Positions 1 to 64,000 of a stretch of 64,000 nt of DNA are shown here, in pieces (position 1 is the stretch's first letter; each line of letters opens with the position of its first letter). The DNA is taken from positions 139,321,172 to 139,385,171 of the forward strand of contig NC_058337.1 of assembly GCF_905475395.1 (NCBI RefSeq), written 5' to 3'. Origin of the DNA: Chrysoperla carnea. Lineage: Eukaryota; Arthropoda; Insecta; Neuroptera; Chrysopidae. The position numbers and the translations under genes are program-made. The notes below the pieces were generated by a model. It made no database searches, had not been told where the DNA came from, and saw only the letters and a list, made by a program, of their open reading frames with translations.

Positions 1-640
1 ATTATTGATTCTTATATTTAAATTATTCGATATATTATTGTATTTAGTATCCGTTTCAATATCAAATTCTTGAACTTCTCCTACTCTTCCATTTAAGTCT
101 CCAACAATTATAAGTTCTGCATCCACGTATTTATATTCCATATCCACAATTTCTTTTTTTAAACAATTAAAAAATTCTGAATTCGAGTACTTTGAATACT
201 TTGGGGGGTTATATATCGCGCATATAAGAAATTTTTTACTTTTAATTTATCGTATAAACCAAACGCACTCTTTTAAATTATTTTTTAAACATTTTATACT
301 TCCTTTCAATTTCTCTCTATTATACACTACAATCCCTCCAGATTTTCTTCCAATTTCTCCAACTTTATTCGGGTCTCTCACAAAAAAGTCATATCCATTA
401 ATATTAACTACAGCATCAGCTTCACACCATGTTTCAAGAAGTATAATTATCTTATACTTTGAGATAAATTCTACTATTTGTTTATTATGTTTTATTCTGT
501 TCATCCCTTCTATATTCGTAAGTATTAATTCGTTATCATTTTTCCGGGTTAAAGCTAAGTCCGTCTTCGTATTTATAATTGCTCCATTAGATAAAGCATT
601 AAATGGAGTTTTTTCTACAGAATCCTTGCTTAAGAAATGT
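1..640 (-). mobile_element. Non-LTR retrotransposon (LINE) endonuclease fragment
   Basis: The minus strand encodes part of an APE-type endonuclease of a eukaryotic LINE. An 85-residue stretch (504-247) carries the ILLETW motif and a GGIVVY block. After a stop near 245 the same frame continues with an AIYNPPK block and a GDLNGRVG motif (about 235-60), both typical of jockey/I/R1-like endonucleases. The reverse transcriptase domain is absent; the fragment runs off the window start. It abuts the truncated Rickettsia purC at about 640. No bacterium is known to carry such elements, so this is arthropod-type DNA next to bacterial DNA. The clade is not determined. Confidence 0.75.
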
Positions 641-1001
641 CAAATTATTGGCTTATCAAATACAAAGCCTTCATCCATACCAAATTCTTTTACAAACCTA
701 CCACACGCAACAGAAGATACAACTACTTGCAGAGGAAACATCTCAACATATTGAATTAACTGCTCTCTCATATTTAGCTTTTCAATAAAATGATTTTCAA
801 TGCCAATCATTTCAAGCTTATTCATTACAAAAGAAAGAAACAAAAGAAAGAGATATTATTATTAAGCACTCCTTTGCCTGATACATCAATAATTTCACCA
901 TTTTCTAAAGTAGCTCTATCAGAAAAAGCCATTACAAGCAAAAACTCTTCTTCAGAAGTATATAGGGTTTTACTTGAACCTTCATATAGTTTTTTTTTCA
1001 T
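641..1001 (-). pseudogene. purC: purC 5' fragment (SAICAR synthetase)
   Basis: Starting at ATG 1001-999 the minus strand reads MKKKLYEGSSK, the typical N-terminus of rickettsial phosphoribosylaminoimidazole-succinocarboxamide synthase (PurC, purine biosynthesis). It continues through MAFSDRATLE and GKGVLNNNIS. A small duplication-like indel near 828-850 shifts the frame; the other frame then carries MNKLEMIGIENHF, SSVACGRFVKEFG and DEGFVFDKPII. The gene stops being recognisable at about 641, where LINE sequence begins, so roughly the last half is missing. The product cannot be functional. Identification rests on the distinctive N-terminal and central PurC blocks. Confidence 0.8.
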
Positions 1002-1020
1002 ATATTATTTTTTTAAATTT

Positions 1021-1241
1021 ATTTAGCGTCATTCCGAGGAAAAACTACAAGTTTTGTACGTGTGCAATATAGTTAAAAAATGCTATAAATTAGCATTTTT
1101 TATTATTTTTCTGGCTCTAGTTCCGAAACCACGTTATGACATTTAAAGACTTCTGAATCCCCGCATATGCTAAGAATGACATTGTGGATATTTTTCGACC
1201 ATGCAACAAAGCCCCTGTGTACAATAATATATAAAAGAAGT
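1021..1241. repeat. Intergenic, Rickettsia palindromic-type repeat remnants
   Basis: No gene is seen. The segment holds pieces of the dispersed rickettsial repeats also present elsewhere in the window: a stem around GCTATAAATTAGCATTTTT, a CCCCGCATATGC block, and a GCAACAAAGCCCC end. The copies are degraded. Confidence 0.5.
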
Positions 1242-2494
1242 CTAAGGCTTTTTTAGCGACTCAATTGTTTTCGAAAAGTCCAAAATATATTCTTCTTGCT
1301 TTTCTAAATCTTTGATTTTGAGGTTGTTATTTGCTTGTTCTTCATCACCAATAAAAACAATAAATTTGGCATTTTCATTTAAAGCTCTTTGCATTCTTTT
1401 TGCAATTTTACCGCTTACTTCTATCAACGCAGATATGTTATGTAAGCGTAATTGATCGGCTATTTTTAAAGAATACGAAATATTATTTTCGCCTATTGGC
1501 AATACAAATATTGGAGTTACCGAATCTATATTATATTCCCGCATTAAAGCTATTCGCTCAATTCCTGCTGCAAAACCTATTGCTGGCACTTCATCGTTAT
1601 TGCCCATAATGCGACTAAGCCCATCATAACGCCCGCCGGCAAGAATAGTGGATTGGCTTCCTAGCTTTGTAGTCGTGAATTCAAAAGCAGTATGGCAGTA
1701 ATAATCAAGTCCTCTAACCAGACGTGTATTTATGGTATATTTCACGCCTAAAATATCAAGATATTTTAATAACTCTTCGAAATATTTTTTTGATTCCTCA
1801 GTATAATACTCCGATAAAACAGGGGCATTTGCTACTATCTTTTGATCAACTTCACTTTTAGAATCAAGAATCCGCATCGGGTTTTTAGTTAGCCTTATTT
1901 TGCTATCTTCTGATAATTCATCCTTAAAGTCATTTAGATATTCTACTAATTTTTGCTGATAAGTAGCACGTGACTGACTGCAACCAAGAAAGTTTAGCTC
2001 TAAAGTAGTATCGGCTAAAACCTCTAAACTTTCAAGTATATCTACTGCTAGTTTTAAGGTTTCAGCGTCAGAGATTGCTCCTTTAGCCCGTAAATATTCA
2101 TAATTTAGCTGATGAAATTGTCTTTGACGCCCTGCTCGCGGTCTATCATAACGAAAAACAGGACCAGTAGAAAATAATTTGAGAGGTAGTTTATGCTGCA
2201 AGCCGTTAGAAATAAAAGCTCTTACAATCCCTGCTGTAAATTCAGGACGAAGTGCTACTGACTCATCACTTTCTAAAAATCTAAAAAGCTGTAGATTTCT
2301 TTACTAATTACGTCAGAGCTTTCACCCATTGAGCGATTAAAGACTTTAGTATATTCGAGTATTGGCGTGCTCATTTGCTTATAGCCATATAATTCCCCAA
2401 CCTCTTTTGCTTTTTTGATTATATATACATGAACTTTATAATCATCCGGCTAAAGATCTTTCATTCCTCGAAGTGGTTGGAGTTTATCAGTCAT
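1242..2494 (-). pseudogene. hisS: Histidyl-tRNA synthetase, broken
   Basis: Class II histidyl-tRNA synthetase, which charges tRNA-His. The 319-codon block 2201-1242 holds motif 2 ([14 protein letters not shown]), the histidine-binding motif [15 protein letters not shown], motif 3 ([14 protein letters not shown]) and the anticodon-binding domain. The N-terminal part is present upstream, starting at ATG 2494 (MTDKLQPLRGMKDL), but has an in-frame TAG near 2448 and a frameshift near 2285. Without those changes the length would match the family (about 415 residues). The gene is essential in a free genome. The matching tRNA-His gene lies at 53905. Confidence 0.85.
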
Positions 2495-2514
2495 TATACT
2501 AGTTTTGTTTTTTT

Positions 2515-2636
2515 GGTTTTGATGTCATTGCGAGAAAAAATTAAAAATTTTGACGAAGCAATCTCAGGAATTTTCGTATTATTTCATGAGATTGCCACGT
2601 CGGTTATTAAAATAACCTCCTCGCAATGACGGACAT
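2515..2636. repeat. Rickettsia palindromic element
   Basis: Inverted-repeat intergenic element. It begins TGATGTCATTGCGAG and ends CTCGCAATGACGGACA, with GATTGCCACGTC inside. The same termini recur at 54029-54147. Confidence 0.7.
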
Positions 2637-2639
2637 TAA

Positions 2640-4034
2640 CTATATTTCTTTTTTCATAAAAAATGATCTCACAATATATAAAACAAATATCGTAACAAAC
2701 CAAATTATTAAAGCACGTCCTGCAGTATGTAAATTAAATTCACCATCAAATACTTGAATAAATAACAAATATACACATGCACATATAATAAAAGGAGCAA
2801 TAATATATACCAAAGGACATTTAAAAGGTCTTTGAGCATTCGGTAGTCTTGTTCTAAACAACAACACTATTGTTGCAACAGTTATGTAGTCAATAATTGC
2901 TCCCATCGAAGTTAATTGGGTCAATAATTCCGTTGAACAAAATCCTCCAAGAATAGCAGCTAAAGATGCAAATATTATAATTGAAATGTATGGGCTATCG
3001 TACTTAGGATGTACTTTTGCAAAGCTTTTTGGTAATAACCCATCACGTGCGATAGCGTAAAAAATACGTGAAGTACCATAAATATTCATCATTAACACCG
3101 TCATCATATCGCAAACTGCACCGGTTGCAACGATAGCTGAGCCGATTTTACTGTTGTTGATAGTTAAAGCATAAGCAAGCGGTTGATCATTATTTAACTG
3201 ATCAAAAGGTGCAATACCCGTAACAAGACCTGCCATCGCCACATATACTATAGTAGTTAAAACGAGCGAGCCGATAATACCGATCATTATATCACGCTTT
3301 GGGTTTTTACACTCTTCAGCAGCAGTTGCAATTGTTACAAATCCTGTAAATGCTAAGAATAAAATTGATGCACCGACTAAAACGTTACTAAAACCAAACG
3401 GCATAAAATTGCTCCAATTAGTTGCATCAAAATGTGGAGCAGCAGCAATTATAAATACGAATATCGCCGCCATTTTAACAAATACTAAAATAGCATTTAA
3501 TTTTTTACTGTCTTTAGTACCTAAAAATAGAATGAACCCAATAAATACCGAAATTAAAAATGCAGGTAAATTTACTATACCGCTATTTGTCGGCACTGTA
3601 GTTAAAGCTTTCGGCAACTCAATTCCACCAGCTGCGAGTATCCCTTGTACATAACCAGACCAACCGGCAGCAACTATTCCTGAAGCAACTCCTAACTCTA
3701 ATATTATAACGCTACCAATCATCCAAGCAAAAACTTCTCCAAATGCAACATAGGAATAAGTATAAATACTACCGGATGTCGGAAGCATTGCCGCAAGCTC
3801 AGTGTAAACAAAAGCTACAAAAATACAGGTAATACCTGCAATTGCGTATGATAACATTACAGCAGGACCTGCATATTTAGCGGTTATTATGCCGGTAACA
3901 ACGAACACGCCGGTACCAATCATAGCACCAAGTCCAAGTAGTATTAGGTCAAATGCTCCAAGAGTATTACTAAGACCGCTCGAGCTACCTATTTCCTTTA
4001 CTGATTCAAAACTTTTCTTTCTTAAAAAACTCAT
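2640..4034 (-). CDS. APC-family amino acid permease
   Basis: An intact 464-residue integral membrane protein of the amino acid-polyamine-organocation (APC) superfamily, probably importing host amino acids, as expected for an intracellular parasite. The N-terminal GLGAMIGTGVFVVTG block is the family signature in the first membrane helix. About twelve hydrophobic segments follow, with a charged AAEECKNPKRD loop after the sixth. It is closest in layout to the cationic amino acid transporter group (YfnA/YhdG-like). It is one of the few full-length genes here. Substrate is not determinable from sequence. It is convergent with nothing; hisS follows on the same strand after a palindromic repeat. Confidence 0.85.
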   Translation of the reverse strand: MSFLRKKSFESVKEIGSSSGLSNTLGAFDLILLGLGAMIGTGVFVVTGIITAKYAGPAVMLSYAIAGITCIFVAFVYTELAAMLPTSGSIYTYSYVAFGEVFAWMIGSVIILELGVASGIVAAGWSGYVQGILAAGGIELPKALTTVPTNSGIVNLPAFLISVFIGFILFLGTKDSKKLNAILVFVKMAAIFVFIIAAAPHFDATNWSNFMPFGFSNVLVGASILFLAFTGFVTIATAAEECKNPKRDIMIGIIGSLVLTTIVYVAMAGLVTGIAPFDQLNNDQPLAYALTINNSKIGSAIVATGAVCDMMTVLMMNIYGTSRIFYAIARDGLLPKSFAKVHPKYDSPYISIIIFASLAAILGGFCSTELLTQLTSMGAIIDYITVATIVLLFRTRLPNAQRPFKCPLVYIIAPFIICACVYLLFIQVFDGEFNLHTAGRALIIWFVTIFVLYIVRSFFMKKEI

Positions 4035-4082: not shown

Positions 4083-4165
4083 TAATGTCACTCCGCAACT
4101 TGATTGCGGAGTCTTGTGTCGCAGACTGCGTCCTAAGATCCCGTGGTCAAGCCACGGGATGACAC
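4083..4165. repeat. Rickettsia palindromic element overlapping mnmA 3' end
   Basis: Two nested hairpins are visible: CTCCGCAAC TTGAT TGCGGAG, and ATCCCGTGG TCAAG CCACGGGAT. The element extends into the last codons of mnmA, adding a tail ending SSRGLTTGS. Confidence 0.7.
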
Positions 4166-5255
4166 ATCCCTAATAATCCAGCCGCCGCCAAGTACTCTTG
4201 TGCCGTCATAAATAACGCATGCTTGTCCAGAGGCAACAGCCTTTTCTTCAGACAAAAACTTTACTTTCATTCTGTCACCCTCAAGCTTACTTATTTCAGC
4301 TAAATGAGGGGGTCTTGTTGAGCGGACTTTAACGCTTACTTCCAGCTTCTCGCCATCTTTTAGGCTACCGGCTAGCCAATTCACGTCTTTAATTACGAAT
4401 TCCTGCACGTTTAACGCAGATTCTGGACCTACATATACTATATTACTATTAGGATCAATCTTTATCACATATAAAGGCTCGTGGTAAGATATGCCAAGAC
4501 CACGTCGTTGTCCTATAGTATAGTTAATTATGCCGCTATGAGTTCCTAACTCAAAACCATTTATATGCAGAATCTTACCGCTTTCGCTACTATCCAGACG
4601 TATTTTATTTATTACGTTCTTATAATTTCCATCAGGTACAAAGCAAATATCTTGGCTGTCAGGTTTATCTGCCACCTTAAGCCCAAATTTACTAGCAAGT
4701 TTTCTTGTCTCATCTTTAGTAAGACCTCCAAGTGGGAAATCCAAATATTCAAGCTGTTCTTTAGTACTTGCAAATAAAAAATAACTTTGATCTTTTAAAG
4801 GGTCAAGTCCCATATGAAGTTCTGGACCATTATCACCATTTATTTTTCGTACGTAATGACCTGTAACAAGTTTATCAGCTCCAAGTTCTTTAGCAGTTTT
4901 GATTAAGTCCCTGAATTTTACGGATTTATTGCATTGTACGCATGGCAGAGGCGTCTCACCTCGCAGATAGCTATCAACAAAATTATCTATTACCGATTCT
5001 TTAAATTTACTTTCATAATCAAGCACATAATGAGGCATGCCAAGCTTGTTTGCTACCATTTTAGCATCATAAGTATCCTGACCTGCACAACAAGCATTTT
5101 TTTTTGCCCACAGCCATACCATGATCGTATAATTGCAGGGTAATACCTATTACATTATAGCCTTGTTCGCACAATATCCCAGCAACCACTGAACTATCAA
5201 CACCGCCAGACATCGCAACGACTAAAGTAGACTGTCTATCGTTTGAGTTAATCAT
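4133..5255 (-). pseudogene. mnmA: tRNA-specific 2-thiouridylase, frameshifted
   Basis: MnmA puts the 2-thio group on wobble U34 of tRNAs. The N-terminal piece (5255-5067) carries the pyrophosphatase loop [11 protein letters not shown]. The main piece (5122-4133) carries PCVQCN, the catalytic-cysteine block DICFVPDG and the C-terminal barrel. They are separated by a frameshift in a run of nine T (plus strand) at about 5097-5105: both frames encode the same [11 protein letters not shown] region, so one extra base explains it. A homopolymer error in sequencing is as possible as a real mutation. The C-terminus is extended by a palindromic-element tail. Confidence 0.85.
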
Positions 5256-5571: not shown

Positions 5572-6566
5572 ATGTCGTTGCAATATAAAAAATCCCTTAA
5601 AACTTTATGTAAAACGTTTGCTGCATTAATATTTATTTAGTTGGTGCTGGTTATTTTAGAATATGCTCGCCAAGGTTTTAAAAATGATTTATCGATGCAG
5701 AAAGTGGATTTATCAGTTCAAAACTCAATAAAAGAACCTATTTATTTAGTTTCTTATGCTGATGGTGCAGAACATATTTATCGTAACCAGAATGCGACAA
5801 GTCATTATGCGATTAATAAAGGTATAGACTTTATACTTAATTATAAGAAAAAACATATTGATCAAACATTTATTGAAAAACATCAAGAAATTTTTAATGA
5901 AAAAGCAGGAGCGGGTCTATGGTTATGGAAACCCTATATTATACTTGAAACAATGAAAAATGCTCCCGAGGGAGCTATTATAGTATATTTAGATTCAGCT
6001 TTTATTATTAAACAACATATTAGCAATCTGACTAATCTGTTAGGCAATAATGATGTATTACTGGTACATGATCGTGATCGTAAAAACGGCAGTTTTGTAA
6101 AAGGCGAAAGCTTTGCCTTGATGAATTGCCTTAATGAAGAATGTAGAAATGATGATCATATTTGGAGTGCGGTTATTGTAGTACGTAATACTAAGCTTGC
6201 TCGCTCCTTTATTGAAAAATGGCTAAAAAGTTGTGAGGATATTAGAGTCCTTTCAGGTAAAGATTATAATATTCATCCTAATTATGACGAATATAAATGG
6301 CATCACTCAGACCAGTCAGTGCTTAGCCTTGTATATCACCAAAATCCACAATCAGTTAAAGTAATAGAATATGAAGAGACTACGCCGCTTTTAAGTTTCA
6401 TCGTAAAAATTCGAATAGTTCGCCGTTAAAAGCTTGGTATAGCATATATGGTATAGATCCAATAATTAACTTTAATACTAATGGTAAAGCATTGCCGTCT
6501 ACAGCTCTTATAAATACTTCGCCAATAGTTAAATTACGTAAATGGATTATTGAGTATACTCGTTAA
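5572..6566 (+). pseudogene. Glycosyltransferase-like rickettsial protein, broken
   Basis: The reading frame starts at ATG 5572 with a hydrophobic N-terminal anchor (KTLCKTFAALIFI), meets an in-frame TAG at 5638-5640, then continues as a long ORF (5641-6429) and, after a frameshift near 6390, to a stop at 6566. Blocks such as GLWLWKPYII, AIIVYLDSAF and HHSDQSVLSL resemble glycosyltransferase-fold proteins found in surface polysaccharide clusters; the YLDSA position is where a DxD-like metal site would sit. The family assignment is tentative. The N-terminal anchor suggests a membrane-attached enzyme facing the envelope. Confidence 0.5.
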
Positions 6567-6712: not shown

Positions 6713-6882
6713 TTTCTCATAAGCTTTAATTCTTTATTTAGATCAATATTTTTATACTTATCTAATATATTTCGGGCTTTTTCTATATTTGAATGAAAAG
6801 TTGATACTATTAATTCTGAATCATTATACTTTATTGTCACCTCATCACCTGTTTTGAGTTTTAACTTTTTCCTAACTTTTAT

Positions 6883-7465
6883 GTAGTTAAGTGGGATAGG
6901 GTTAACACTCTCGCCTTTAGGCGAACACTTTAGTATAATCTATCTAATAGGTTACTAGAGGAAGAGATGGAATATAGGAGAGGGTCTCATAGCTTGTATG
7001 ATTTAAAGTATCATATAGTGTTTTGTACAAAGTACATGTATAGAGTTTTAACTGGGCAAATAGCAAGTAGAGCAAGGGAAGTAATTCGGGAAATATGTGC
7101 AGCTAATTACATAGATATAATTAGTGGCAGCATAAGTCCTGATAATGTTCATATATTAGTATCAGTTCCACCGAGTATCTCAATATCTAAGGTGTTACAA
7201 TAAATTAAAGGAAAGAGTAGTCGTAAATTGCTACAGGAATTTGAACTACTTCGTAAGCGATATTGGGGTCAACATCTTTGGACTAGAGGGTATTTTGTTG
7301 TTACAGTTGGTAATGTGAATTCAGAAGCAGTACAGAAGTATATAGAGCAACAAGAAGACTATCATAAAAAAGATGATTTTAGAATATCAGAGTTTTAGCG
7401 TTTACGCTTTTAATCTGCTTTGCAAGCGTAAACCAAACTACCGGCTTTAGACGGTAGTAATTGAT
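6883..7465 (+). mobile_element. IS200/IS605-type element, copy 1
   Basis: Element with left end GTAGTTAAGTGGG after TTAT, a small left hairpin (TCGCCTTTAGGCGA), one tnpA gene, a right hairpin (ACTACCGGCTTTAGACGGTAGT) and right end TAATTGAT. No terminal inverted repeats or target duplication are seen, as expected for this single-strand transposing family. It is inserted in the antitoxin gene. Confidence 0.9.
6967..7398 (+). pseudogene. tnpA: IS200 transposase TnpA, copy 1 (stop)
   Basis: Y1 (HUH) transposase. The frame has a TAA at 7201-7203 in place of the tyrosine of the VLQYIKGKS block, which is the likely nucleophile tyrosine region. The HUH-like HVHILVSVP block has a His-to-Asn change (DNVHI). 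Confidence 0.85.
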
Positions 7466-7595
7466 AGGAATTGCAAGTCTACCATTATTATCAATATAAC
7501 TTTTCTTTACTATCATAAAAATAATTTTTTTCTTAGATTTTACTGTTTTTAATAGAATTAATCAATTAATTAAAATCTTATGTTTTGATAATTCC

Positions 7596-8138
7596 TTATT
7601 TTTTCACATCTCGTACTTTAAAGAAGCTATAAGACAAGGTAAGTACTTTTACATCTCTCATTTCAGGATCGTTTTCGAAATCCTTATCTATATAAAACGT
7701 GACTGGCATTAAAACTTTCTCACCGGCTTTTAATAATTGTTCTTCGAAACAAAAACAATGAATCTTTACAAAATATTTTCCTGCTTTATTAGGAGTAACG
7801 TTATAAATTGAAGTTCCTATAATATCGTTATTACTTAAATTTTCTGTTTCATAAAAAACCAGAGTATTTTGCCCCGAAACAATCTGGACTCGCTGCTGTC
7901 TTGGAATAAAACGCCAAGGTAAATTTTTATCGACATTAGCATCAAACTCAATAATTATAGGTCTAGTTCCTTTGACTTTAGAGTAGATACTTACTGTTTC
8001 TCTATTAGTCGTGCCGCCATATCCCGTAACTTTACAAAATAAATTATAAAGTGGTACGGCAGCAAAGCTAAGTAGTACCATGCTAACTATTAGTCCTAGC
8101 AAGGAAAACGCTAAACTTTTATTAGATTTTTTAGACAT
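7596..8138 (-). CDS. ctaG: Cytochrome c oxidase assembly protein CtaG/Cox11
   Basis: An intact 180-residue protein that delivers copper to the CuB site of cytochrome c oxidase subunit 1. It has one N-terminal membrane helix (about residues 9-30), the [12 protein letters not shown] block just after it, and the copper-binding CFCFEEQ motif near residue 128. The rest is an immunoglobulin-like periplasmic domain. Length matches the family. It is divergent from rpoH with a 90-base AT-rich gap that probably holds both promoters. Confidence 0.9.
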
Positions 8139-8228
8139 TATTTGATTTTATTTAAAAATACTCTAGAAATAGTTTATTTTAGAACATATATATGATATTA
8201 TAAAGAAAATTAATTAGTGAGGTTAGTA

Positions 8229-8744
8229 ATGACTAGTAATATTAATGCATTAGCAATCTCTAGTGAATCTGGCTTTTATAGCTACTTACAGAAAATTAAC
8301 AAAATTCCTTCACTAACGCAAGAAGAAGAGTTTTTGCTGGCTAAATCTTACTTAGAGCAGAATGATCTGCAAGCGGCACATAAGCTAGTAACTAGCCATC
8401 TTAAGTTAGTTGCAAAAATTGCAACTGGTTATAGAACTTATGGTTTTACTGTTACCGAATTAGTATCGGAAGGTAATATAGGTTTAATGCAAGCAGTGAA
8501 AAAATTCAATCCTGAGCTTGGTTTTCGTTTGTCAACTTATGCTATATGGTGGATTAAAGCTGCTATCCAAGAATATATATTAAAATCTTGGTCATTAGTA
8601 AAGATGGGTACGACTGCTACACAGAAAAAATTATTTTTCAGCCTTAGTAAAATTAAAAATAAAATCACTAATTTATATTCAAGAGCTATTACAAGCGATG
8701 ATTTTGTCCAAATCGCTGATGAATTAGGCGTTTCAAGTAGATAA
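8229..8744 (+). pseudogene. rpoH: Heat-shock sigma factor, truncated by the palindrome
   Basis: RNA polymerase sigma-32. The start at ATG 8229 gives MTSNINALAISSESGF. Region 2 is visible (VSEGNIGLMQAVKKFNP, then STYAIWWIKAAIQEYIL, the core-binding and -10 recognition helices). The frame ends after GVSSR, about residue 171 of an expected 290 or so, exactly where the 1.9 kb palindrome begins. Region 4 (-35 recognition) is missing and does not reappear on the far side. The gene is essential or nearly so in rickettsiae. Confidence 0.9.
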
Positions 8745-9071
8745 GCTATGCCGGTCCGGGCCCACTTTTGCTCATTTTTACATGTTATTTCTTATGGGAA
8801 ATTCTAAGGTCCATTTTGCACCTTTTTGTTCCTTTTTATGCAATGCTGGCTGCCTAACCTTAACGCATACTTATTATTAATGTATGTATATTGTATTCAA
8901 TTACAACCCATCTGAACCACACTTGTTAACACACTTACATCATACTCTTTACTTACCATTATTTGTAATTTAGCATACGTAGCGTACGTTGGTATAATTG
9001 TCAACATAACTTCTTCATGTATTAACAGCGAATATTAATAATATTATATGGATTGCTTAAAAAAATTTTAC

Positions 9072-9144
9072 TTACTACTATAAGATTTGAACGCGGGCCC
9101 TCATGAGTGGAAGTCTACTATGCTAACCACTCAACCACAAGACC
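9072..9144 (-). tRNA. tRNA-Gly-like sequence, left arm
   Basis: Mirror copy of the unit at 10238-10310, read on the minus strand. A-box TGGTTGAGTGG and B-box GCGTTCAAATC are present; the acceptor arms do not pair well. Probably a pseudo-tRNA or a polymerase III promoter rather than a working tRNA. Confidence 0.4.
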
Positions 9145-9221
9145 TTGTTACAACATAGACAAAAAAAGTTAATAACATAAAAACGTTTTTACAAAATATA
9201 CTGAAAACCAGACTGGTTTCT

Positions 9222-10160
9222 AAACAGACCAGTATTAAACAGGTCAAACCAGTATTAAACAGACCAGTATTAAACAGGTCAAAACCAGTATTAAACAGAT
9301 ACAGACCAGTATTAAACAGGTCAAAACCAGTATTAAACAGATACAGACCAGTATTAAACAGGTTAAAACCAGTATTAAACAGATACAGACCAGTATTAAA
9401 CAGGTTAAAACCAGTATTAAACAGGTCAAAACCAGTATTAAACAGATACAGACCAGTATTAAACAGGTTAAAACCAGTATTAAACAGATACAGATCAGTA
9501 TTAAACAAGTCAAAACCAGTATTAAACAGATACAGACCAGTATAAAACAGATACAGACCAGTATTAAACAGGTTAAAACCAGTATTAAACAGATACAGAC
9601 CAGTATTAAACAGGTCAAAACCAGTATTAAACAGATACAGACCAGTATTAAACAGATCAAAACCAGTATTAAACAGATACAGACCAGTATTAAACAGGTC
9701 TGTATCTGTTTAATACTCGTTTTGATCTGTTTAATACTGGTTTTGATCTGTTTAATACTGGTTTTGACCTGTTTAATACTGGTCTGTATCTGTTTAATAC
9801 TGGTTTTAACCTGTTTAATACTGGTCTGTATCTGTTTTATACTGGTCTGTATCTGTTTAATACTGGTTTTGACTTGTTTAATACTGATCTGTATCTGTTT
9901 AATACTGGTTTTAACCTGTTTAATACTGGTCTGTATCTGTTTAATACTGGTTTTGACCTGTTTAATACTGGTTTTAACCTGTTTAATACTGGTCTGTATC
10001 TGTTTAATACTGGTTTTAACCTGTTTAATACTGGTCTGTATCTGTTTAATACTGGTTTTGACCTGTTTAATACTGGTCTGTATCTGTTTAATACTGGTTT
10101 TGACCTGTTTAATACTGGTCTGTTTAATACTGGTTTGACCTGTTTAATACTGGTCTGTTT
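9222..10160. repeat. Minisatellite, 21-22 bp units
   Basis: Tandem units built on GTTTAATACTGGT plus variable CTGTATCT or TTTGACCT. The array occupies the inner half of both palindrome arms and inverts at 9686-9696. It has no stop codons in some frames, which produces spurious ORFs rich in Leu, Ile, Cys or NTG repeats. Confidence 0.95.
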
Positions 10161-10237
10161 AGAAACCAGTCTGGTTTTCAGTATATTTTGTAAAAACGTT
10201 TTTATGTTATTAACTTTTTTTGTCTATGTTGTAACAA

Positions 10238-10310
10238 GGTCTTGTGGTTGAGTGGTTAGCATAGTAGACTTCCACTCATGAGGGCCCGCGTTCAAATCTT
10301 ATAGTAGTAA
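10238..10310 (+). tRNA. tRNA-Gly-like sequence, right arm
   Basis: TCTTGTGGTTGAGTGGTTAG resembles the D arm and A-box of eukaryotic tRNA-Gly, and GCGTTCAAATC is B-box-like. The presumed anticodon loop contains TTCCA (anticodon TCC). Acceptor pairing is poor, so function as a tRNA is doubtful. Confidence 0.4.
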
Positions 10311-10647
10311 GTAAAATTTTTTTAAGCAATCCATATAATATTATTAATATTCGCTGTTAATACATGAAGAAGTTATGTTGACAATTATACCAACGTACGC
10401 TACGTATGCTAAATTACAAATAATGGTAAGTAAAGAGTATGATGTAAGTGTGTTAACAAGTGTGGTTCAGATGGGTTGTAATTGAATACAATATACATAC
10501 ATTAATAATAAGTATGCGTTAAGGTTAGGCAGCCAGCATTGCATAAAAAGGAACAAAAAGGTGCAAAATGGACCTTAGAATTTCCCATAAGAAATAACAT
10601 GTAAAAATGAGCAAAAGTGGGCCCGGACCGGCATAGCTTATCTACTT

Positions 10648-10832: not shown

Positions 10833-11702
10833 ATGAACAAAATCTCAGCTTTTATCATTACTAAAAATGAAGCTGCAAGGATAGAACGGGCTATAAATAG
10901 CGTAAAAAACATTGCTAATGAGGTGATAGTTGTAGATAGCGAAAGTACTGATGAGACTGTAGTAATCGCTGAAAGCTTAGGAGCTAAGGTAGTAGTAAAG
11001 CCATGGCTTGGTTATGTAGGGCAGAAATCTTTTGCTGAAGATCTATGTTAAAACGATTGGATTCTTAATATTGATGCTGATGAAGAACTTTCTAAAGAGT
11101 TGCAAGACGAAATAGAATATATCTTTGCCTCTCAAAATCAAGATCGTTATTTGGCTTATCAGATAAAGCTTTTAATAATGCATCGTAATGATACACGCCC
11201 TAGAATTTTTGCCCCTTATAATAAATGCACTAGATTGTATAATAAAAAATTTGCTAGTTTTTCAAATACTATAAAGAGTACCACTCATGATTCGGTAGTA
11301 TTTAATAAGGATGTTGATTTTGCAAATAAAATCTATACATTAAATGAAGCTGCTTATCACTATTCAGGTACTTCGATTGAGCAGCTAGTAGCTAAAGCAA
11401 ATTTTTATTCCGGCGAGCAAGCAAAAGATTTAATCAAGCAAGGTAAAAAACTATCGAATATTCGAATAGCAACCGAAATGATATGGTGGTTTTTCAAAGC
11501 ATTTTTTATTAGAAGATATTTTGTATTTGGATGTGATGGGTTTGTAGATTCAATGATTTTTGCTTTTGCAAGATTCCTGAGGCTTGCGAAGTTGAGAGAG
11601 TCATCACTGCAATGTAATCCCGCAACTCGATCGCAGGATCTCAAGACACAGTTTGTTATACAAGATCCCGTGGACAAGCCACGGGATGACAATATTGTAT
11701 GA
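10833..11702 (+). pseudogene. Family 2 glycosyltransferase, one nonsense codon
   Basis: GT2 (GT-A fold) enzyme, probably in lipopolysaccharide core or surface glycan synthesis (WaaE/KdtX-like). The N-terminal part has SAFIITKNEAARIERAI and VIVVDSESTDET; after a TAA at 11049-11051 the same frame continues NDWILNIDADEELS, the DxD metal site. The TAA replaces what is normally a lysine codon (LCKNDW). Further down it has typical family spacing and a C-terminal amphipathic segment. The last 30 residues or so are translated palindromic element. Followed closely by the M16 protease gene. Confidence 0.8.
11610..11700. repeat. Rickettsia palindromic element inside the GT2 3' end
   Basis: Hairpin GATCCCGTGGACAAGCCACGGGAT preceded by ATCCCGCAACTCGATCGCAGGAT. 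It is translated as the tail of the GT2 reading frame, and a similar element ends mnmA. Confidence 0.7.
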
Positions 11703-11727
11703 CGATTTAGAAAATAAAAAAGTAATT

Positions 11728-12964
11728 ATGAAAGAAAATTTTAACGTTAGTAAATTAAAGAATGGTTTAACGATTTTAACATATAATATGCCTTATGTTA
11801 ATTCGGTAGAAATAAATTTGATAGCCAAAGTTGGTAGCCGTTATGAAAATCCGGAAGAAGAAGGAATATCACATTTCCTTGAACATATGGCTTTTAAAGG
11901 TACTAAAACCAGAACAGCAAAGCAAATAGCTGAAGAGTTTGATTCTATAGGCGGACATTTTAATGCTTATACCGGTCATGAAAAGACAGTATATTATTCA
12001 AGAGTGTTATTTAAAAATTGTAATAAAGCACTAGCAATAATTGCTGATATAGTACAAAATTCTGCTTTTGCTGAAAAAGAGATAGCAAAGGAGTATCAGG
12101 TAATTTTGCAAGAAATAGCACATGCTCAAGATAATCCTGATGATTTAGTATATGAAAAGTTTTATAATAGTGTGTTTAAAGATCAGCCGCTTGATAAACC
12201 GATACTTGGAACAAGCAAAACCTTTGAGACTTTTAATAAGGATCATTTCTTAAACTTTACAGGTAAACATTATAATGCTGAGAACTTTTATTTATCGATT
12301 GCAGGTAATGTTGACCATGAAGAAATAGTAAAAGAAGCAGAACTTTTATTTTCTTCTTTAACACAAGGAAAGAAAAGTAATTTTTCACCTGCAAAATATA
12401 TAGGCGGTCATAGCTTTATAAATAAAGATTTAGAACAAACTACTTTAATATTAGGATTTGAAGGAACATCTTACATTAATTTAGAAAGGCTTTACCAAAC
12501 TCAGCTACTTGCTATAATATTTGGCGGTGGGATGTCTTCAAGATTATTCCAACATATTCGTGAAAAATTAGGACTTGCATATGCTGTAGGGAGTTATAAT
12601 AGTCCCTATTTTGATAGCGGAGTATTTACTATTTATGCAAGTACACCTCATGATAAATTAGAGCTATTAGCCGCAGAGCTGAAGAATGAAATAAAGAGAA
12701 TGACAGAGCAAGTAAAACAAGAAGAGATCGAAAGAGCTAGAACACAAATCCACAGTAATTTACAAATGGCTCAGGAAAAAGTAGCTTATAAATCAGAAGA
12801 GATAGGCAAAAATTATGCTGTTTTCGGTAAATATCTCTCCTGAAGAGATTATGGAAATTATCATGAATATAAAAGCCGAGGATATTATACAAACAGCAGC
12901 TAGAATATTTAGTACTAACGCTACATCTGCTGTTATTGGTCCTAATAGCTTAAGCAGGTTTTAG
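11728..12964 (+). pseudogene. M16 zinc peptidase, frameshifted near the 3' end
   Basis: Mitochondrial-processing-peptidase-like (M16B, pitrilysin family) protease. Start at ATG 11728 ([14 protein letters not shown]). The inverted zinc motif HFLEH lies near residue 48, with downstream glutamates in [10 protein letters not shown] as the third ligand region. The substrate-binding [22 protein letters not shown] block is present. A frameshift at about 12835 moves the last 40 residues ([17 protein letters not shown]... to the stop at 12964) to another frame. The family is about 412 residues long. Role in rickettsiae is presumed peptide or precursor processing. Confidence 0.85.
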
Positions 12965-16419: not shown

Positions 16420-16445
16420 GGAAAACTTGGCTTAAATAATCCTTT

Positions 16446-16559
16446 CTAAATTTCTGTTTTTAGCTTTTTTATTTGTTCTTTTGTTAAATCAGTAAATTCC
16501 ATAATCTCACCCACGGGTTTTCTTTTAATAAGCATTTTCTTTGGTCGGGTAGAAACCAT
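16446..16559 (-). CDS. Short unknown ORF
   Basis: A 37-residue frame (MVSTRPKKMLIKRKPVGEIMEF...) between cydA and a group II intron remnant. The start is at ATG 16559. It resembles no family I can name; the upstream boundary coincides with mobile DNA, so it may be the C-terminal end of a longer lost gene. Confidence 0.25.
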   Translation of the reverse strand: MVSTRPKKMLIKRKPVGEIMEFTDLTKEQIKKLKTEI

Positions 16560-28150: not shown

Positions 28151-28172
28151 CGAGTAAAAGGTTATAATGAGA

Positions 28173-37233: not shown

Positions 37234-37282
37234 AAAAAATGTTACTTACTTCATAGTTCTTATTTAATAAAATTATGTGTTT

Positions 37283-40043: not shown

Positions 40044-40055
40044 ATGAGATAAAAA

Positions 40056-45861: not shown

Positions 45862-45988
45862 TCGAAGAATACCATAAATCAATTAAACAGAACGCTAGTT
45901 TGGCTAAATACCCAACTAAGGTTATTCGTTCACAATGTAACCATATTTTGTCGGTACTGATAGCTTATTCTAAATTAGAAAAACTTAA

Positions 45989-48690: not shown

Positions 48691-48703
48691 TTGAGTTATT
48701 AAT

Positions 48704-50180: not shown

Positions 50181-51462
50181 CTACGCCGGTATGTCTTCAA
50201 CAGCTGCTTGCTTTTTACTTGTTTTTGCTGTTGGGGTAATAATAGAAGTAATTATTGGCTCTATTAGCCCCTTAACTACATCTTCTGTAATAGTAACACG
50301 CTGTTTCTTCAGCTCAGCATCTTTATACATACTATCAAGTAAAAGATGCTCAATTATTGAACGAAGACCTCTTGCTCCAGTTTTTTTAGCTAAAGCTTTT
50401 TCAGCGATAGCTTCTAATGCAGAATCCTCAACTATTAACTCAGCTTCCTCAAGCTCAAATTGTTTTTTAAACTGTTTTACTATAGCATTTTTTGTCTTAG
50501 TTAAAATTGTAACTAAAGCTTCTTTATCTAAATCATCTAAGGTTGTAACGATTGGTAATCTTCCGATAAATTCAGGAATTAATCCAAATTTTGTTAAATC
50601 CTCAATCTCTAAAGATTTAAGAATCTCTCTGTTAATTTTTTCTTTGTCAATATTTACATTTGCTGCAAAACCTATAGAACTATTATTTGTTCTAGAAGTT
50701 ATGATGCTATCAATTCCCATAAAAGCACCACCGCAAATAAACAAAATATTTGAGGTATCGAGCTGCACAAAATCTTGCTGTGGATGTTTTCGACCACCTT
50801 GCGGAGGAACAGAAGCAACCGTTCCTTCCATAATTTTAAGTAGTGCTTGTTGTACGCCCTCCCCTGATACATCTCTAGTAATTGAAGGGTTTTCGGACTT
50901 TCTAGCAATCTTATCAACCTCATCAATATATATTATACCTTTTTGTGCTTTAGCCACATTAAACTCGGCAGCCTGAAGTAATCTAAGTAAAATATTTTCA
51001 ACATCCTCACCAACATAACCAGCTTCCGTTAAAGAGGTAGCATCAGCCATAGTAAAAGGTACGTCTAAAATTTTAGCAAGTGTTTGAGCAAGTTTTACCT
51101 GAACCGGTAGGACCAATTAACAAAATATTAGATTTATTAAGCTCAACATCATTATTGCCTGACTGGACATATTCAAGCCTTTTATAATGATTATATACCG
51201 CTACTGCTAGAATTTTTTTAGCTTGCTCTTGACCAACTACATAATCATTCAAAACTGAACATATTTTTTGTGGAGTCGGAATGGTGGAAGTAATCTGCTT
51301 TAATGCAATTTTACTCTCTTCTTCCATTATATCCACGCATAAATTTATACATTCATCGCAAATAAATACCGCAGGACCTGCTATTAATTTTTTCACTTCA
51401 TGCTGCTTTTTGCTACAGAATGAACAAATTAATTCTTTTTTATTAGCTTCTACTACCATCAA
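50181..51462 (-). pseudogene. clpX: ClpX unfoldase, frameshifted after Walker A
   Basis: AAA+ unfoldase of the ClpXP protease. The N-terminal C4 zinc domain (CSFC...CDECINLC) and Walker [11 protein letters not shown] are in the frame 51462-51073; after KT a frameshift near 51090-51100 moves the rest to 51116-50181: [17 protein letters not shown], Walker [14 protein letters not shown], arginine-finger and sensor regions, and [11 protein letters not shown]. Total about 425 residues, as usual. ClpX is broadly essential in alphaproteobacteria. Confidence 0.9.
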
Positions 51463-51794: not shown

Positions 51795-52346
51795 TTACAA
51801 AACCCTACCATACATATAGTAATCTTTATGCTCATTTGCAACTATTTCGTATTTTTTAAGTATTCCCTCACGTGCAAACCCGCATCTTTCAAGTAAATTA
51901 ATTGAGCGTAAATTATCTGTAATTACTGTTGCTTGAACTCTGACAATTTCAATATGATCGGTAATTTTCAGAATATTTTTTATAGACTTTAACATTATAC
52001 CTTGCCCCCAAAAGCTATAATCCAAATCATAGCTGATTTTGGCCTTGTGATGCTCTAAATTTATTATATTAAAACCAGCAGTGCCAATAAGTTTATTATC
52101 GCTTTTAAGTGAAATACCCCAATAAAAACTTCTGTGATTCTTATATAAACTAGACCAATAACGAATTTCTTCCTTAGCTTCCTCTAAAGTTTTTGGTCTG
52201 TTACTTTCTGTTATATAAATAGCCATTTCAGGCTTATTCATATAACTAAAATAATCTTCAGCATCCACGCCCGTTAGCTCTCTTAATATTATATCATCTA
52301 AATCAAGCGTAGGAAAGGGGGAGTATAAATATTTTCTATCAATCAT
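51795..52346 (-). CDS. RimJ-type GNAT acetyltransferase
   Basis: An intact 183-residue N-acetyltransferase of the RimJ/RimL group, which acetylates ribosomal or other protein N-termini or small molecules. [23 protein letters not shown] is the central strand pair; [18 protein letters not shown] is the conserved acetyl-CoA/C-terminal motif. It overlaps the queC stop by 4 bases, so the two genes are probably translationally coupled. Confidence 0.85.
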
Positions 52347-53026
52347 AAATATTTTGCAGGGTCTTGCACATTATTCTTTTTAAAAGCATCAAGCCTTATC
52401 GTGCAAGCAAGGCAAGTGCCGCAAGATAGATCATCTTCGCTACGATCATAACATGATATGGTATTTTTATAATCTACTCCAAGCCTAAGCCCTGTTTTAA
52501 TTATCTGATCTTTAGTCATATTAATTAAAGGAGTATGAATAGTAACTCCGCCTATGTTGGTTGCTAGATTTGCCATTGCTTCAAAAGATTTGATATATTC
52601 AGGGCGGCAATCAGGATAATTTGCTGAATCGCTAGTATGTACGCCTATGAAAATATCCTTAGCACCTATTATTTCGGCAAACCCTAATGCGTAACTTAAA
52701 AAAATTGTATTACGGGCAGGTACATCGATAACTGGCACATCTTCAGGTAGCTCTTTCGTATCGTGATAATGAGGAACTTTTATATCATCATCAGTAAGAG
52801 CAGAACCACCGAAAGCTCTTAAGTCTATATTGACAATTTTATGTTGCTTGACATTATACTTTTTTAGCAGCTCCGTAACTTTCCGTAGTTCAGCATTGTT
52901 ACGCTGCCCATAATTAAAACTTATAGCATGAATTTCATAACCTTGCTCTCTCATTATTGCAAGAACAGTAGCAGAATCCGCCCCACCACTAACTAAAATA
53001 ACCGCTTTTTTCATTTCTATATTCAT
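52343..53026 (-). CDS. queC: 7-cyano-7-deazaguanine synthase
   Basis: Makes preQ0 for queuosine tRNA modification. A full 227-residue frame. PP-loop [14 protein letters not shown] near residue 13 (most homologues have SGGLDS); [22 protein letters not shown] in the middle; C-terminal zinc cysteines in [22 protein letters not shown] start at 53014 ([11 protein letters not shown]) is also plausible. Other queuosine genes are not in the window. Confidence 0.9.
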
Positions 53027-53904: not shown

Positions 53905-53982
53905 GGCGGGTGTAGCTCAGTTGGTTAGAGCATCAGGTTGTGGTTCTGAGGGTCGCGGGTTCGATTCCCGTCACTCGCCCCA
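53905..53982 (+). tRNA. tRNA-His (GTG)
   Basis: Anticodon loop TTGTGGT in a CAGG...TCTG-type stem gives anticodon GTG. The acceptor stem is 8 bp (GGCGGGTG with CACTCGCC), including the extra G-1 to C73 pair that marks tRNA-His, and the CCA is encoded (53980-53982). D loop GCTCAGTTGGTTAGAGC and T arm CGGGTTCGATTCCCG are standard. It appears intact. Confidence 0.95.
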
Positions 53983-54202: not shown

Positions 54203-55930
54203 ATGAACACCAAACTTTTATATAGACTGGCTAAAAACTTAAGATTCTATAAAAAAGATTTGATCATTGTTATAATCTCTCTTCTTAGCGTATCGCTTGC
54301 ATTATTGCTAATCGGTAATGTTTTCAGAAATTTAGTTGATCAAGGTTTGGTTTTAGATCATGCAGCGGCAGTTGATAAATCCATATTATATATCTGCCTG
54401 CTTACTATTATCTTAAGCATTGCTAGTTTTTTTCGTTCGTATTTTATTAATAGTGTTGCTGAGAAAGTCTCGAGTCAAATAAGAAAAGAAGCCTATAGCA
54501 AACTAATTAACTATGAAATTACTGAATTTGAAGAGCTAAAAATCGGCGATATAATCTCACGTCTTACGAGTGATATAGATCAAATATCTAAGCTCATTGT
54601 TAATTTCCTATCTTTTTTTATTCGCAATTCGGTGATGTTAGTCGGTAGCATTATTTTGATGTTTTTTGAAAGCTTTAAACTAGCATCGATAGTAATTATC
54701 ACTATTCCTTTGCTACTAATTCCTATAATCAAATTTGGTAAGCATGTTAAAGCTTTATCCCAAAAAACCTTAGAATCTGAATCACTTTTAGCATCTGATA
54801 TTAACGAAAGTTTTAGTAATATCAAAACTATTAATGCTTTTGGAGGTCAGGCAGCTAAAATTACTGAGTTAAATAATCTGCTGCAAGATTATTTGACCTA
54901 TTCGGCAGCTCGTTTAAAAATTCGTGCTTTTTTCTTCGCATTCTCAATGGCTTTTATATTTCTTGGAGTTACGCTAGTTATTTGGATTGGGGCTTTGGAT
55001 ATAGTAAAAGGTAATTTATCCTCCGGTAAAATTATATCATTTATTTATTATGCAATTATTGCCGGCTTTAGTAGTGGCGGTATTTTTGAGTTATTAAGCG
55101 AGATGCACTTGCCCCTTGCTGCTTTAGAGCGAATAGTTACCATCATTGATAAGTCACCTATAGTTAATCATAATAATTATTCAGATTTAAAGCCCGTTAA
55201 TTCTATATCGTTAGAGTATAAAACAGTAAATTTTTCCTACCCATCAAGACTTAATTTCAAAATCATCAATAATATATCTTTTAAAATAGATTCTACCAAG
55301 TTTATTGGTATTGTTGGTAGATCAGGCTCAGGTAAAAGTACTTTGATGCAGCTGCTATTACGCTTTTATGTCCAAGAAAGCGGCATAATTTTGGTAAATA
55401 GCCAAGATATTGCTCTTTTAAATCCTAATGAAATCCGTAAATTAATCGCTTATGTTCCGCAAGAAGCTAGTATTTTTTCTGGTACTATTAAATCAAATAT
55501 TATGTTTGGTAATGATTCTAGCGAAGAGGAAATAACCAAAATAATAAAAATTACCGGTATAGCTGATTTTGCTGATAAAATTCCTGATGGGCTTGATGCC
55601 AAAATCGGCGAAAAAGGTGTTAGGCTATCAGGCGGACAGAAGCAAAGAATAGCCTTAGCAAGGGCATTACTACGCAAGCCGTAAATTCTGCTTCTTGACG
55701 AGGCGATGAGTGCTTTAGATAGCGAAAGCGAGCAGAAACTATTAAGCTCTATTAGGGATATAATGAACGGAAAAATTGTTATATCAATCGCCCACCGCAT
55801 CAGCAGCATAGAATCCGCAGACAATATTTTGATAATAGATAAAGGAGCGGTAGTAGCCGAAGGAACGCACGCTCATCTACTAAAAACCTCTGACCTCTAC
55901 CGCACTATTTATAAGGAAGTGGAATTATGA
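54203..55930 (+). pseudogene. msbA: MsbA-like ABC exporter, one nonsense codon
   Basis: A 575-codon lipid A/lipid exporter family protein. Six-helix membrane domain (residues about 1-310), Walker A GRSGSGKST near residue 373, LSGGQKQRIALARALL, then a TAA at 55681-55683 where Walker B leads in (KP then ILLLDEAMSALDSES), and the H-loop SIAHRISS. The TAA replaces what is normally lysine. The rest of the frame is open to 55930. Assignment to MsbA rather than another lipid exporter is by general similarity. Confidence 0.85.
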
Positions 55931-61325: not shown

Positions 61326-61602
61326 TAAGGAGGTAATCCCCTACGGCTACCTTGTTACGACTTCACCCCAGTCGCTAATTTTACCGTGGTTGGCTGCCTC
61401 TTGCGTTAGCTCACCACTTTCAGGTAAAACCAACTCCCATGGCGTGACGGGCAGTGTGTACAAGGCCCGAGAACGTATTCACCGCGGCATGCTGATCCGA
61501 GATTACTAGCGATTCCAACTTCATGCTCTGGAGTTGCAGAGAACAATCCGAACTGAGAATGAGGCAAATAAGAATGAGGGTTGCGCTCGTTGCGGGACTT
61601 AT

Positions 61603-61640
<38 letters not shown>

Positions 61641-61800
61641 ACACCTGTGTGTGGTCCAGCTGAACTGAAGGAAAGCATCTCTGCGATCTGCGACCACCAT
61701 GTCAAGGGTTGGTAAGGTTTTTCGCATAACATCGAATTAAACCGCATGCTCCACCGCTTGTGCGAGCCCCCGTCAATTCCTTTGAGTTTTAATCTTGCGA

Positions 61801-61840
<40 letters not shown>

Positions 61841-61862
61841 AACCGAGAGAAAATCTCCCAAT

Positions 61863-61904
<42 letters not shown>

Positions 61905-62160
61905 TATCCTGTTTGCTCCCCACGCTTTCGTGCATCAGCGTCAGTTGTAGCCCAGATGACCGCCTTCGCCACCGGTGTTCCTCCTAATATCTAAGAATTT
62001 TACCTCTACACTAGGAATTCCATCATCCCCTACTACACTCTAGATTAGTAGTTTTGAAAGCAATTCCGAGGTTAAGCCCCGGGCTTTCACTTCCAACTAA
62101 CTAAACCGCCTACGCACTCTTTACGCCCAGTAATTCCGAACAACGCTAGCCCCCTCCGTC

Positions 62161-62196
<36 letters not shown>

Positions 62197-62273
62197 TTTC
62201 TGCAAGTAACGTCATTATCTTCCTTGCTAAAAGAGCTTTACAACCCTAGGGCCTTCATCACTCACTCGATATT

Positions 62274-62325
<52 letters not shown>

Positions 62326-62326
62326 G

Positions 62327-62383
<57 letters not shown>

Positions 62384-62650
62384 AGATCGCAGGCTTGGTG
62401 AGCTATTACCTCACCAACTACCTAATCTGACGCGGGCTCATCCATCAGCGATAAATCTTTCCTCCGTAGAGAATATACGGTATTAGCTTTTATTTCTAAA
62501 AGTTATTCCGTACTGATGGGCAGATTCCCGCGTGTTACTCACCCGTCTGCCACTAACTAATTGGAGCAAGCCCTAATTAGTCCGTTTGACTTGCATGTGT
62601 TAAGCATACCGATAGCGTTCGTTCTGAGCCAGGATCAAACTCTCAAGTTT
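61326..62650 (-). rRNA. rrs: 16S ribosomal RNA gene with large internal deletion
   Basis: Minus strand. The 3' end with the anti-Shine-Dalgarno ACCTCCTTA is at 61326; the 5' end (AGTTTGATCCTGGCTCAG) is near 62650. Length is about 1,325 instead of 1,500. The gap is at about 61556-61566: AACCCTCATTCTTATTTGCC is joined almost directly to TCAGTTCGGATTG, so the segment corresponding roughly to E. coli 1125-1290 is missing. The universally conserved ATTAGATACCC at 61899-61909 reads ATAAGATACCC. The rest matches rickettsial 16S. Rickettsia normally has one 16S gene, unlinked from 23S. Confidence 0.93.
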
Positions 62651-63057
62651 GATCTTGTCAGTTTTACTTTAAAAAATTGACAGATTTAATTATCACTTTT
62701 GTGATATGTATATGTTTACTGTCACTATCTATATTTAATTATTTACTTTTAAAAACAGCTGCGATTTTTTTCATTTGTCGCTCTCGATAGGTGTAGTTAT
62801 AAGCAATATAATCGGACCTGTCAACTACAATTTTGAAATTATTTTTATTTTTATTTTATAACTTATTACTACCCAGTATAAATATTTTATTTCAAAAGCC
62901 TTAAGAGCTGATTCTTAAAGGTTTTTTATATTTAATTACGTATTAAAATTTATTTTAAAAATTATAATTATTTTGCTTTAATTATAACAAAACTCAAAAA
63001 TTCACAGATATAATTATCTTTCATTTACTTTATTGCCACGTTTTACTGTTGATTCTT
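62651..63057. other. 16S upstream region
   Basis: No gene. AT-rich; the 16S promoter would be here (reading toward lower coordinates) but I cannot assign it confidently. Confidence 0.5.
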
Positions 63058-63568
63058 TTAATCTCTCCACATGACTTTTTTATCTGTCATTTTTTTCTTT
63101 TCTTGCCTTTGGACAACACGCTCATCAAGTTTTTTTTGATAATAATTTTTTGATGAAGATATACCTAAAGCACCTGACATTTTTCCAATAAGCTTATATA
63201 TTTTATCTTTAAACGGCAGTTTAAAATCTTTCATAGCTTCTTGACGATCTTGAGAAGCTTTGCTTTCTAAGTACTGATCTACTTTATTATGAGCAGCTAA
63301 TTTATTTTCTTTAAAGCACTTTGCTAATTGTGTTTGAACCTTTTTTAGTTCTTCTACCTGATTAGGATTTTGTAAATTTGCGTTATCTATAATATCTATT
63401 AAAGGTTTAATAGAATTTTGTTGCATCTATTTTGCTTCTTGTGCTTTTTTTATTTCAGACTCAAAACCTACTGCCATGCGTCGCTTTAGCTCCGATACAG
63501 GTGGTGCTTCTTGTACTTTCTTTGCTTCTTTTTGTGCTTTTGTTTTGGATTCAAAGTCTTTAGACATA
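63058..63568 (-). pseudogene. Conserved Rickettsia hypothetical, one nonsense codon
   Basis: From ATG 63568 (MSKDFESKTKAQKEAKK) the frame meets a TAG at 63427-63429 after KKAQEAK, then continues MQQNSIKPLIDIID to 63058. About 169 codons, lysine- and glutamine-rich, mostly helical with coiled-coil character, no signal peptide. I do not recognise a function; a domain with KDFKLPFKDKIYKLIGKMSGALG recalls small rickettsial repeat proteins. It sits between 16S and IS200 copy 8. Confidence 0.55.
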
Positions 63569-63612
63569 TACTAACTTATTTATGTTAAAAAATTATACAA
63601 TACTTAATAAGT

Positions 63613-64000
63613 ATCAATTACTACCGTCTAAAGCCGGTAGTTTGGTTTACGCTTGCAAAGCAGATTAAAAGCGTAAACGCTAAAACTCTGATATTCTAAA
63701 ATCATCTTTTTTATGATATTCTTCTTGTTGCTCTATATACTTCTGTACTGCTTCTGAATTCACATTACCAACTGTAACAACAAAATACCATCTAGCCCAA
63801 AGATGTTGACCCCAATATCGCTTACGAAGTAGTTCAAATTCCTGTAGCAATTTACGACTACTCTTTCCTTTAATATATTGTAACACCCTAGATATTGAGA
63901 TACTCGGTGGAACTGATACTAATATATGAACATGATCAGGACTTATGCTGCCACTAATTATATCTATGTAATTAGCTGCACATATTTCCTGAATTACTTC
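63613..64000 (-). mobile_element. tnpA: IS200/IS605-type element, copy 8 (runs off window)
   Basis: Right end and C-terminal two thirds of tnpA (63680-64000, open) are inside the window. HUH block and tyrosine region intact; differences R for K before VLQY and R for G in LWARWYF. Confidence 0.9.

Follow-up and report, generated by a model that had tools for sequence, protein, structure and literature searches.

The window analysed here, 64,000 nucleotides from the lacewing Chrysoperla carnea (chromosome 1), is almost certainly a segment of a Rickettsia chromosome that lies inside the insect chromosome and decays without selection, probably as the result of a germ-line transfer from a symbiont of the bellii group; this reading rests on sequence comparison. 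We also somewhat favour a larger claim: that a stretch of Rickettsia chromosome on the megabase scale, rather than a set of dispersed fragments, entered chromosome 1 near its end and has since served as a landing zone for host elements, Polintons among them, in a species that still carries living Rickettsia. It would then be the first such case outside Wolbachia, as we know of no earlier megabase-scale transfer from another symbiont. The initial annotation, made from the letters alone, had proposed a decaying Rickettsia segment integrated into an arthropod nuclear genome. The chromosome-scale scaffold, the clean-ended host repeats within Rickettsia DNA and the loss of selection described below bear this out.

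About 33.7 kb of the window, in 15 blocks, is collinear with a single-contig Rickettsia genome of 1,512,138 bases (G014), running from G014 position 591,121 down to 529,472 at 97% identity (962 differences over 33,662 aligned bases, with 36 insertions or deletions, indels). When the flanks are included, the same order extends from 600,781 to 523,646 (77 kb, with gaps) in blocks that are 89–99% identical, and a few secondary G014 matches fall outside it. At the DNA level the amino acid permease gene was closest to G014 among 23 Rickettsia genomes (98%), followed by G013 (97%) and G004 (96%). Among the best 80 loci listed as related to the M16 peptidase, one carried Rickettsia in its title. No Chrysoperla name appeared among the 120 permease relatives listed of 7,588, most of which are nameless, and positions 2640–6429 of the window had no match in the plasmid collection searched.

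A search of the insect's own genome (559,487,470 bases in 337 contigs) placed the window at positions 139,321,172–139,385,171 of chromosome 1, which is 139,979,878 bases long; the window thus lies ~ 0.6 Mb from the chromosome end. The published assembly, inChrCarn1.1, is described as 337 scaffolds, the longest of exactly 139,979,878 bases and chromosome 1 of 139.98 Mb (GC 29.1%), built from 40-fold PacBio HiFi reads with Hi-C scaffolding to a contig N50 of 67.8 Mb; its stated total of 560,248,701 bases is 0.76 Mb above the assembly searched here (PMC10116181). There is no N in the window or in the next 100 kb. Downstream, the last G014 match stops at chromosome 1 position 139,400,158 and long reading frames stop near 139.408 Mb. 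Beyond that point GC drops to ~ 27%, and a copia-type polyprotein follows ~ 22 kb further on. The Rickettsia DNA therefore lies on a host nuclear scaffold and is joined to host DNA.

Host transposons also lie inside the bacterial DNA, and the three that the initial annotation had named (a long interspersed nuclear element, or LINE, at the left edge, a palindrome in rpoH and a Polinton with 6-bp duplications) all have counterparts among repeats at other places in the lacewing genome. Counting itself, the LINE-like piece has 13 own-genome matches, of which the best two, on C3 (99%) and C6 (98%; C denotes contigs of the assembly), both end at its base 640. It lies at the right-hand end of an 18.5-kb stretch that has split a 236-residue Rickettsia gene in two, one half at 643–1001 and the other at window coordinates −18,650 to −17,890. 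Two frames of this stretch were scanned and gave no Pfam match. In the upstream flank, an integrase frame (rve in L087) and two retrotransposon frames (RVT_1 in L089 and L092) were found amid Rickettsia-type insertion sequences.

Polinton/Maverick elements are recognised by terminal inverted repeats, a 6-bp target-site duplication, an rve integrase and a double-jelly-roll capsid protein. The 11.9-kb element in the window has all of these: its terminal inverted repeats are 617 nt long and 97% identical, ATGAGA stands on both sides, and it encodes the integrase and the capsid, with a further chromodomain match below the Pfam cut-off. Relatives of its ends were found on C3, C5, C6 and C215, and the nearest listed relative of its capsid frame is C. 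carnea LOC123301420 (89%), on a 76.4-Mb contig. The left flank (28120–28172) matches eight sites in the Rickettsia zone of chromosome 1, each match stopping exactly at the insertion point. Unlike a typical Polinton, this copy is rearranged, as indicated by the truncated capsid beside an integrase fragment, in which 171 bases repeat a portion of the other integrase in inverted orientation at 80% identity, and by a 1,073-base direct duplication (31283–32355 and 38097–39168, 99.7% identical). It also differs in that no protein-primed DNA polymerase B was matched in the 17 scanned of its 50 stop-to-stop pieces of at least 60 amino acids. Two further frames encode a BIR domain (29290–29709; PF00653, 6.3e-19) and a Sina-type RING finger (36508–37233; PF21362, 6.1e-10).

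The palindrome in rpoH has 954-nt arms that are 99% identical. The arm recurs as inverted pairs ~ 5–14 kb apart on C1, C3, C4 and C5 (best 40 of 53 candidates scored), and in nine of ten pair members the match begins at window position 8735–8737 (8726 in the tenth), so the palindrome shares its ends with inverted pairs elsewhere in the genome. Judging from these pairs, the palindrome is a relic of a host terminal-repeat family, which may be Polinton-like given its size and shared AGTAG start. The sequences flanking the palindrome differ and form no target-site duplication, and compared with G014 the joint lacks 1,255 Rickettsia bases. A 2-bp TA duplication was considered and ruled out, as the own-genome copies start the element at ~ 8736 and G014 shows the 1,255-base loss. 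Each arm also contains a tRNA-like stretch (9060–9170 and its mirror, 10230–10320), recognised by eye from its resemblance to A and B boxes.

We compared the window with G014, G013 and G004 over seven reading frames (2,659 codons, gapped codons set aside). Frames were taken from stop to stop and hence include a few upstream codons, and changes unique to one sequence were counted. The window had 60 non-synonymous changes, 1 stop and 50 synonymous changes of its own, whereas the ratio of non-synonymous to synonymous changes was 27:43 in G014, 22:59 in G013 and 10 (plus 3 stops):76 in G004. The window therefore differed strongly from the three relatives pooled (61:50 versus 62:178, non-synonymous or stop to synonymous; Fisher p = 1.8e-7), and did so when G004 and the window's stop were left out (60:50 versus 49:102, p = 3.9e-4). 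The 16S ribosomal RNA (rRNA) gene behaved similarly, with 17 window-only substitutions compared with 2, 4 and 0 in the relatives (1,325 columns; 174 gapped columns set aside); set against synonymous changes this gives 17:50 for the window and 6:178 for the relatives (p = 8.6e-7). The 165 bases missing from the window's 16S gene are present in R. tamurae and in all three relatives, and none of these three has the indels that break the frames of hisS, mnmA, clpX and the fucosyltransferase-like gene. Purifying selection has thus been lost on the window-specific changes and kept in the three Rickettsia relatives.

The gene breaks listed in the initial annotation (hisS, mnmA, clpX, 16S, rpoH and valS) were all recovered, the first four as indels absent from the relatives and the last two as truncations relative to G014. 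So were its intact genes: permease, rmuC, queC over its Pfam domain, istB and tRNA-His, and the gene that it labelled fdx is full length and 98% identical to G014. The window's small-subunit rRNA gene is the only Rickettsia-like one among six matches in the assembly (best 5 of 2,049 candidates scored). Weaker matches to the bacterial small-subunit model, at C3:14.4, C3:79.96–79.98 Mb and C6:1.93 Mb, comprised four of ~ 1.1 kb at 316–357 bits and one at 35 bits; these probably represent rRNA of the insect itself.

When the window's changes are divided in a simple way into a bacterial and a neutral share, the neutral component comes to 0.78–0.85% for coding DNA, and 16S shows an excess of 1.1%. 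The insect mutation rate is ~ 3e-9 per site per generation. With this rate the insert would be ~ 2.6–3.8 million generations old, which very roughly suggests an age of one to a few million years, ~ 1 to 2 million at two or three generations per year.

The extent of the insert was gauged from an IS200-type insertion sequence. The copy at 6878–7466 had 42 own-genome matches including itself (best 40 of 75 candidates scored), all within 138,279,412–139,385,371 of chromosome 1; the window holds seven further copies, one of them cut by the window end. As the matches are confined to 138.28–139.39 Mb, the Rickettsia-derived zone spans at least 1.1 Mb by IS200 positions, host transposons included. This fits the initial suggestion of a long segment and of a Rickettsia counterpart to the large nuclear insertions of Wolbachia. 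The IS200 expansion was not found among the G014 matches (best 40 candidates scored per genome), and we infer that the copies must have multiplied earlier, when the donor still lived as a bacterium. The gene order kept around the window suggests that the DNA arrived as a single piece. A transfer of the whole Rickettsia genome was also considered and rejected: with G014 as a stand-in for the donor, two of its stretches are unmatched in the assembly (E ≤ 1e-40, 40 candidates scored in each search), so that the presence of a complete G014-like genome is unsupported.

Several observations weigh against these conclusions. The ordered 77 kb lacks 15 kb of the G014 sequence (551,234–536,022) as well as smaller stretches. 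The two unmatched stretches are G014 150,000–169,999, which had no assembly match at E ≤ 1e-40 (40 candidates scored; no inner control), and 509,000–523,645, which had none under the same limits while the rest of the same query matched; an empty result does not by itself show absence. The confinement of IS200 copies to one zone holds for the best 40 of 75 candidates scored. A gap of 200 N lies ~ 56 kb upstream (window coordinate −56,461), so that the far part of the zone depends on scaffolding. The intact permease, rmuC, ctaG and queC fit a young insert but would fit a living genome too. Finally, the likely assignment of the donor to the bellii group rests on the published symbiont of C. carnea, a Rickettsia of the bellii clade that is vertically transmitted at a high rate (PMC7762206).

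These points bear differently on the other explanations. Since Rickettsia is frequent in C. carnea (PMC7762206) and the upstream gap exists, contigs of a living co-infecting Rickettsia might have been misjoined into chromosome 1 during assembly. We consider such an artefact very improbable, because the only Rickettsia-like 16S gene found (best 5 of 2,049 candidates scored) is broken, as are essential genes, selection has been lost, and host repeats with clean ends lie within gapless sequence. Still harder to credit is a living but degenerate Rickettsia whose chromosome took up a host Polinton and LINE in the cytoplasm. Polintons encode an integrase and a capsid and might in principle come into contact with DNA of bacteria, but a cell with broken 16S, valS, hisS and clpX would not be viable unless intact copies existed elsewhere; moreover, three host repeat families lie inside, and the 140-Mb scaffold is continuous with host-like DNA bearing a copia element.

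A variant of our own interpretation deserves more weight, and we regard it as a substantial, though lesser, possibility: the DNA is nuclear, but several separate Rickettsia insertions, or one that was later shuffled, fill 138.28–139.39 Mb. The unmatched G014 stretches are in keeping with this, as is the upstream region 28–100 kb from the window, which had no match to G014 509–652 kb even though insertion-sequence copies are present, and bacterial insertion sequences could drive rearrangement. On the other hand, G014 600,781–523,646 is kept in one order around the window, and all listed IS200 matches fall in one zone.

Probably, symbiont DNA was freed in a germ cell and ligated into the chromosome end region by repair of a break, likely a double-strand break. 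Thereafter it was ordinary insect DNA that drifted, and the sequence shows the outcome: genes disrupted by point mutations and small indels, and the host LINE, the Polinton and the terminal-repeat relic inserted or rearranged within it. We saw no sign of function for the insert, and an accident of germ-line symbiosis is the best reading.

The features of the window are collected in the table. Two observations concern a group II intron: pieces of one were matched by two Rfam models at 16544–17119 (minus strand), and a 94% copy of part of this stretch lies at bases 20,329–20,752 of the upstream flank.

Table. Features of the 64,000-nucleotide window (positions within the window; identities and residue counts relative to Rickettsia relatives where given).
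Feature	Position	Strand	Remarks
Host non-LTR (long terminal repeat)-retrotransposon-like piece	1..640	-	endonuclease-like frame (type judged by eye), one internal stop
Rickettsia gene (236 aa in G014)	643..1001	-	residues 1–115 only, frameshifted
hisS	1245..2494	-	broken by window-specific 5-base insertion
Amino acid permease	2640..4034	-	intact; PF13520 2.5e-49; 98% nt identity to G014
mnmA	4136..5255	-	broken by window-specific 1-base insertion
Glycosyltransferase-like gene	5572..6563	+	frameshifted (compared with G014 alone)
IS200-type insertion sequence, ~ 0.6 kb	6878..7466		Y1_Tnp in another copy
ctaG/cox11	7599..8138	-	intact; PF04442 2.5e-57; 180/180 aa
rpoH	8214..8735	+	residues 1–174 of 299 only (compared with G014 alone)
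Palindrome, two ~ 0.95-kb host terminal inverted repeats head to head	8736..10646		interrupts rpoH
M16 peptidase	11653..12961	+	frameshift near 3′ end (compared with G014 alone)
ABC transporter	13141..14625	-	frameshifted, part of 589-aa frame gone (compared with G014 alone)
cydA	15093..16446	+	frameshifts (compared with G014 alone)
NMT1-like protein	22066..23070	-	intact
HSP70 gene (probably hscA-like)	24597..26374	-	frameshifted (compared with G014 alone)
RNase HII	26902..27489	+	full length; PF01351; 196/196 aa
Rickettsia YhgA-like transposase	27593..28132	+	residues 1–181 of 305; PF04754
Target-site duplication ATGAGA, left copy	28167..28172	+	
Polinton/Maverick, 11.9 kb, internally rearranged	28173..40043		terminal repeats, integrase and capsid
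Major capsid (double jelly roll) frame	34622..35452	+	PF21738 4.8e-106; N-terminal part absent
Target-site duplication ATGAGA, right copy	40044..40049	+	
valS	41168..42834	+	residues 258–812 only (compared with G014 alone)
Mutator-type bacterial transposase copies, inverted pair	45097..46753		766-nt arms
Fucosyltransferase-like gene	47744..48702	-	window-specific 1-base deletion
rmuC	48707..49990	-	intact
clpX	50184..51462	-	broken by window-specific 5-base deletion
queC	52343..53026	-	intact over Pfam domain; PF06508 7.8e-75
tRNA-His	53906..53982	+	intact
Second ABC transporter	54203..55927	+	in-frame stop at codon 494 of 575 (compared with G014 alone)
16S rRNA	61326..62650	-	165 bases missing

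Nuclear transfer from bacteria to animals is well known, mainly from Wolbachia, and the very large cases are mostly Wolbachia as well, as are those met in the literature searched. The lacewing insert thus belongs to a known class, in which its donor and size are remarkable. A Rickettsia case of such size, in a public reference chromosome, would mean that the process depends on life in the germ line and not on a peculiarity of Wolbachia. As a close Rickettsia genome (97%) is at hand, the decay can be dated and the fate of each gene traced. There are practical consequences too: lacewings tested for Rickettsia by polymerase chain reaction could yield product from the nuclear copies, and annotators may meet bacterial genes on C. 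carnea chromosome 1. In the literature searched, which covered few subscription papers, none of the titles listed reported a Rickettsia insertion in Chrysoperla, and the available text of the C. carnea genome note contains no word beginning with rickettsia, symbiont or bacteri (PMC10116181). A survey of Torix Rickettsia does warn that nuclear insertions are possible (PMC7992394).

Among described systems, Wolbachia sequences in the genomes of Dictyocaulus viviparus (PMC4046930) and Glossina morsitans (PMC3998919) are likewise remnants of a symbiont in animal DNA; the lacewing differs from both in its Rickettsia donor, its single chromosomal zone and the Polintons inside it. Drosophila ananassae, with Wolbachia inserted on its chromosome 4 (PMC4299567), also has large symbiont DNA in an insect chromosome, but the donor is again not Rickettsia; that insertion is reported in multiple copies. 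In scale the nearest parallel is the f element of Armadillidium vulgare, a Wolbachia-derived female determiner of ~ 3 Mb with more than 3000 genes (PMC5541319). Both are megabase-scale symbiont-derived regions in an arthropod chromosome, but the f element came from Wolbachia and determines females, whereas the lacewing zone came from Rickettsia and is known from its sequence alone.

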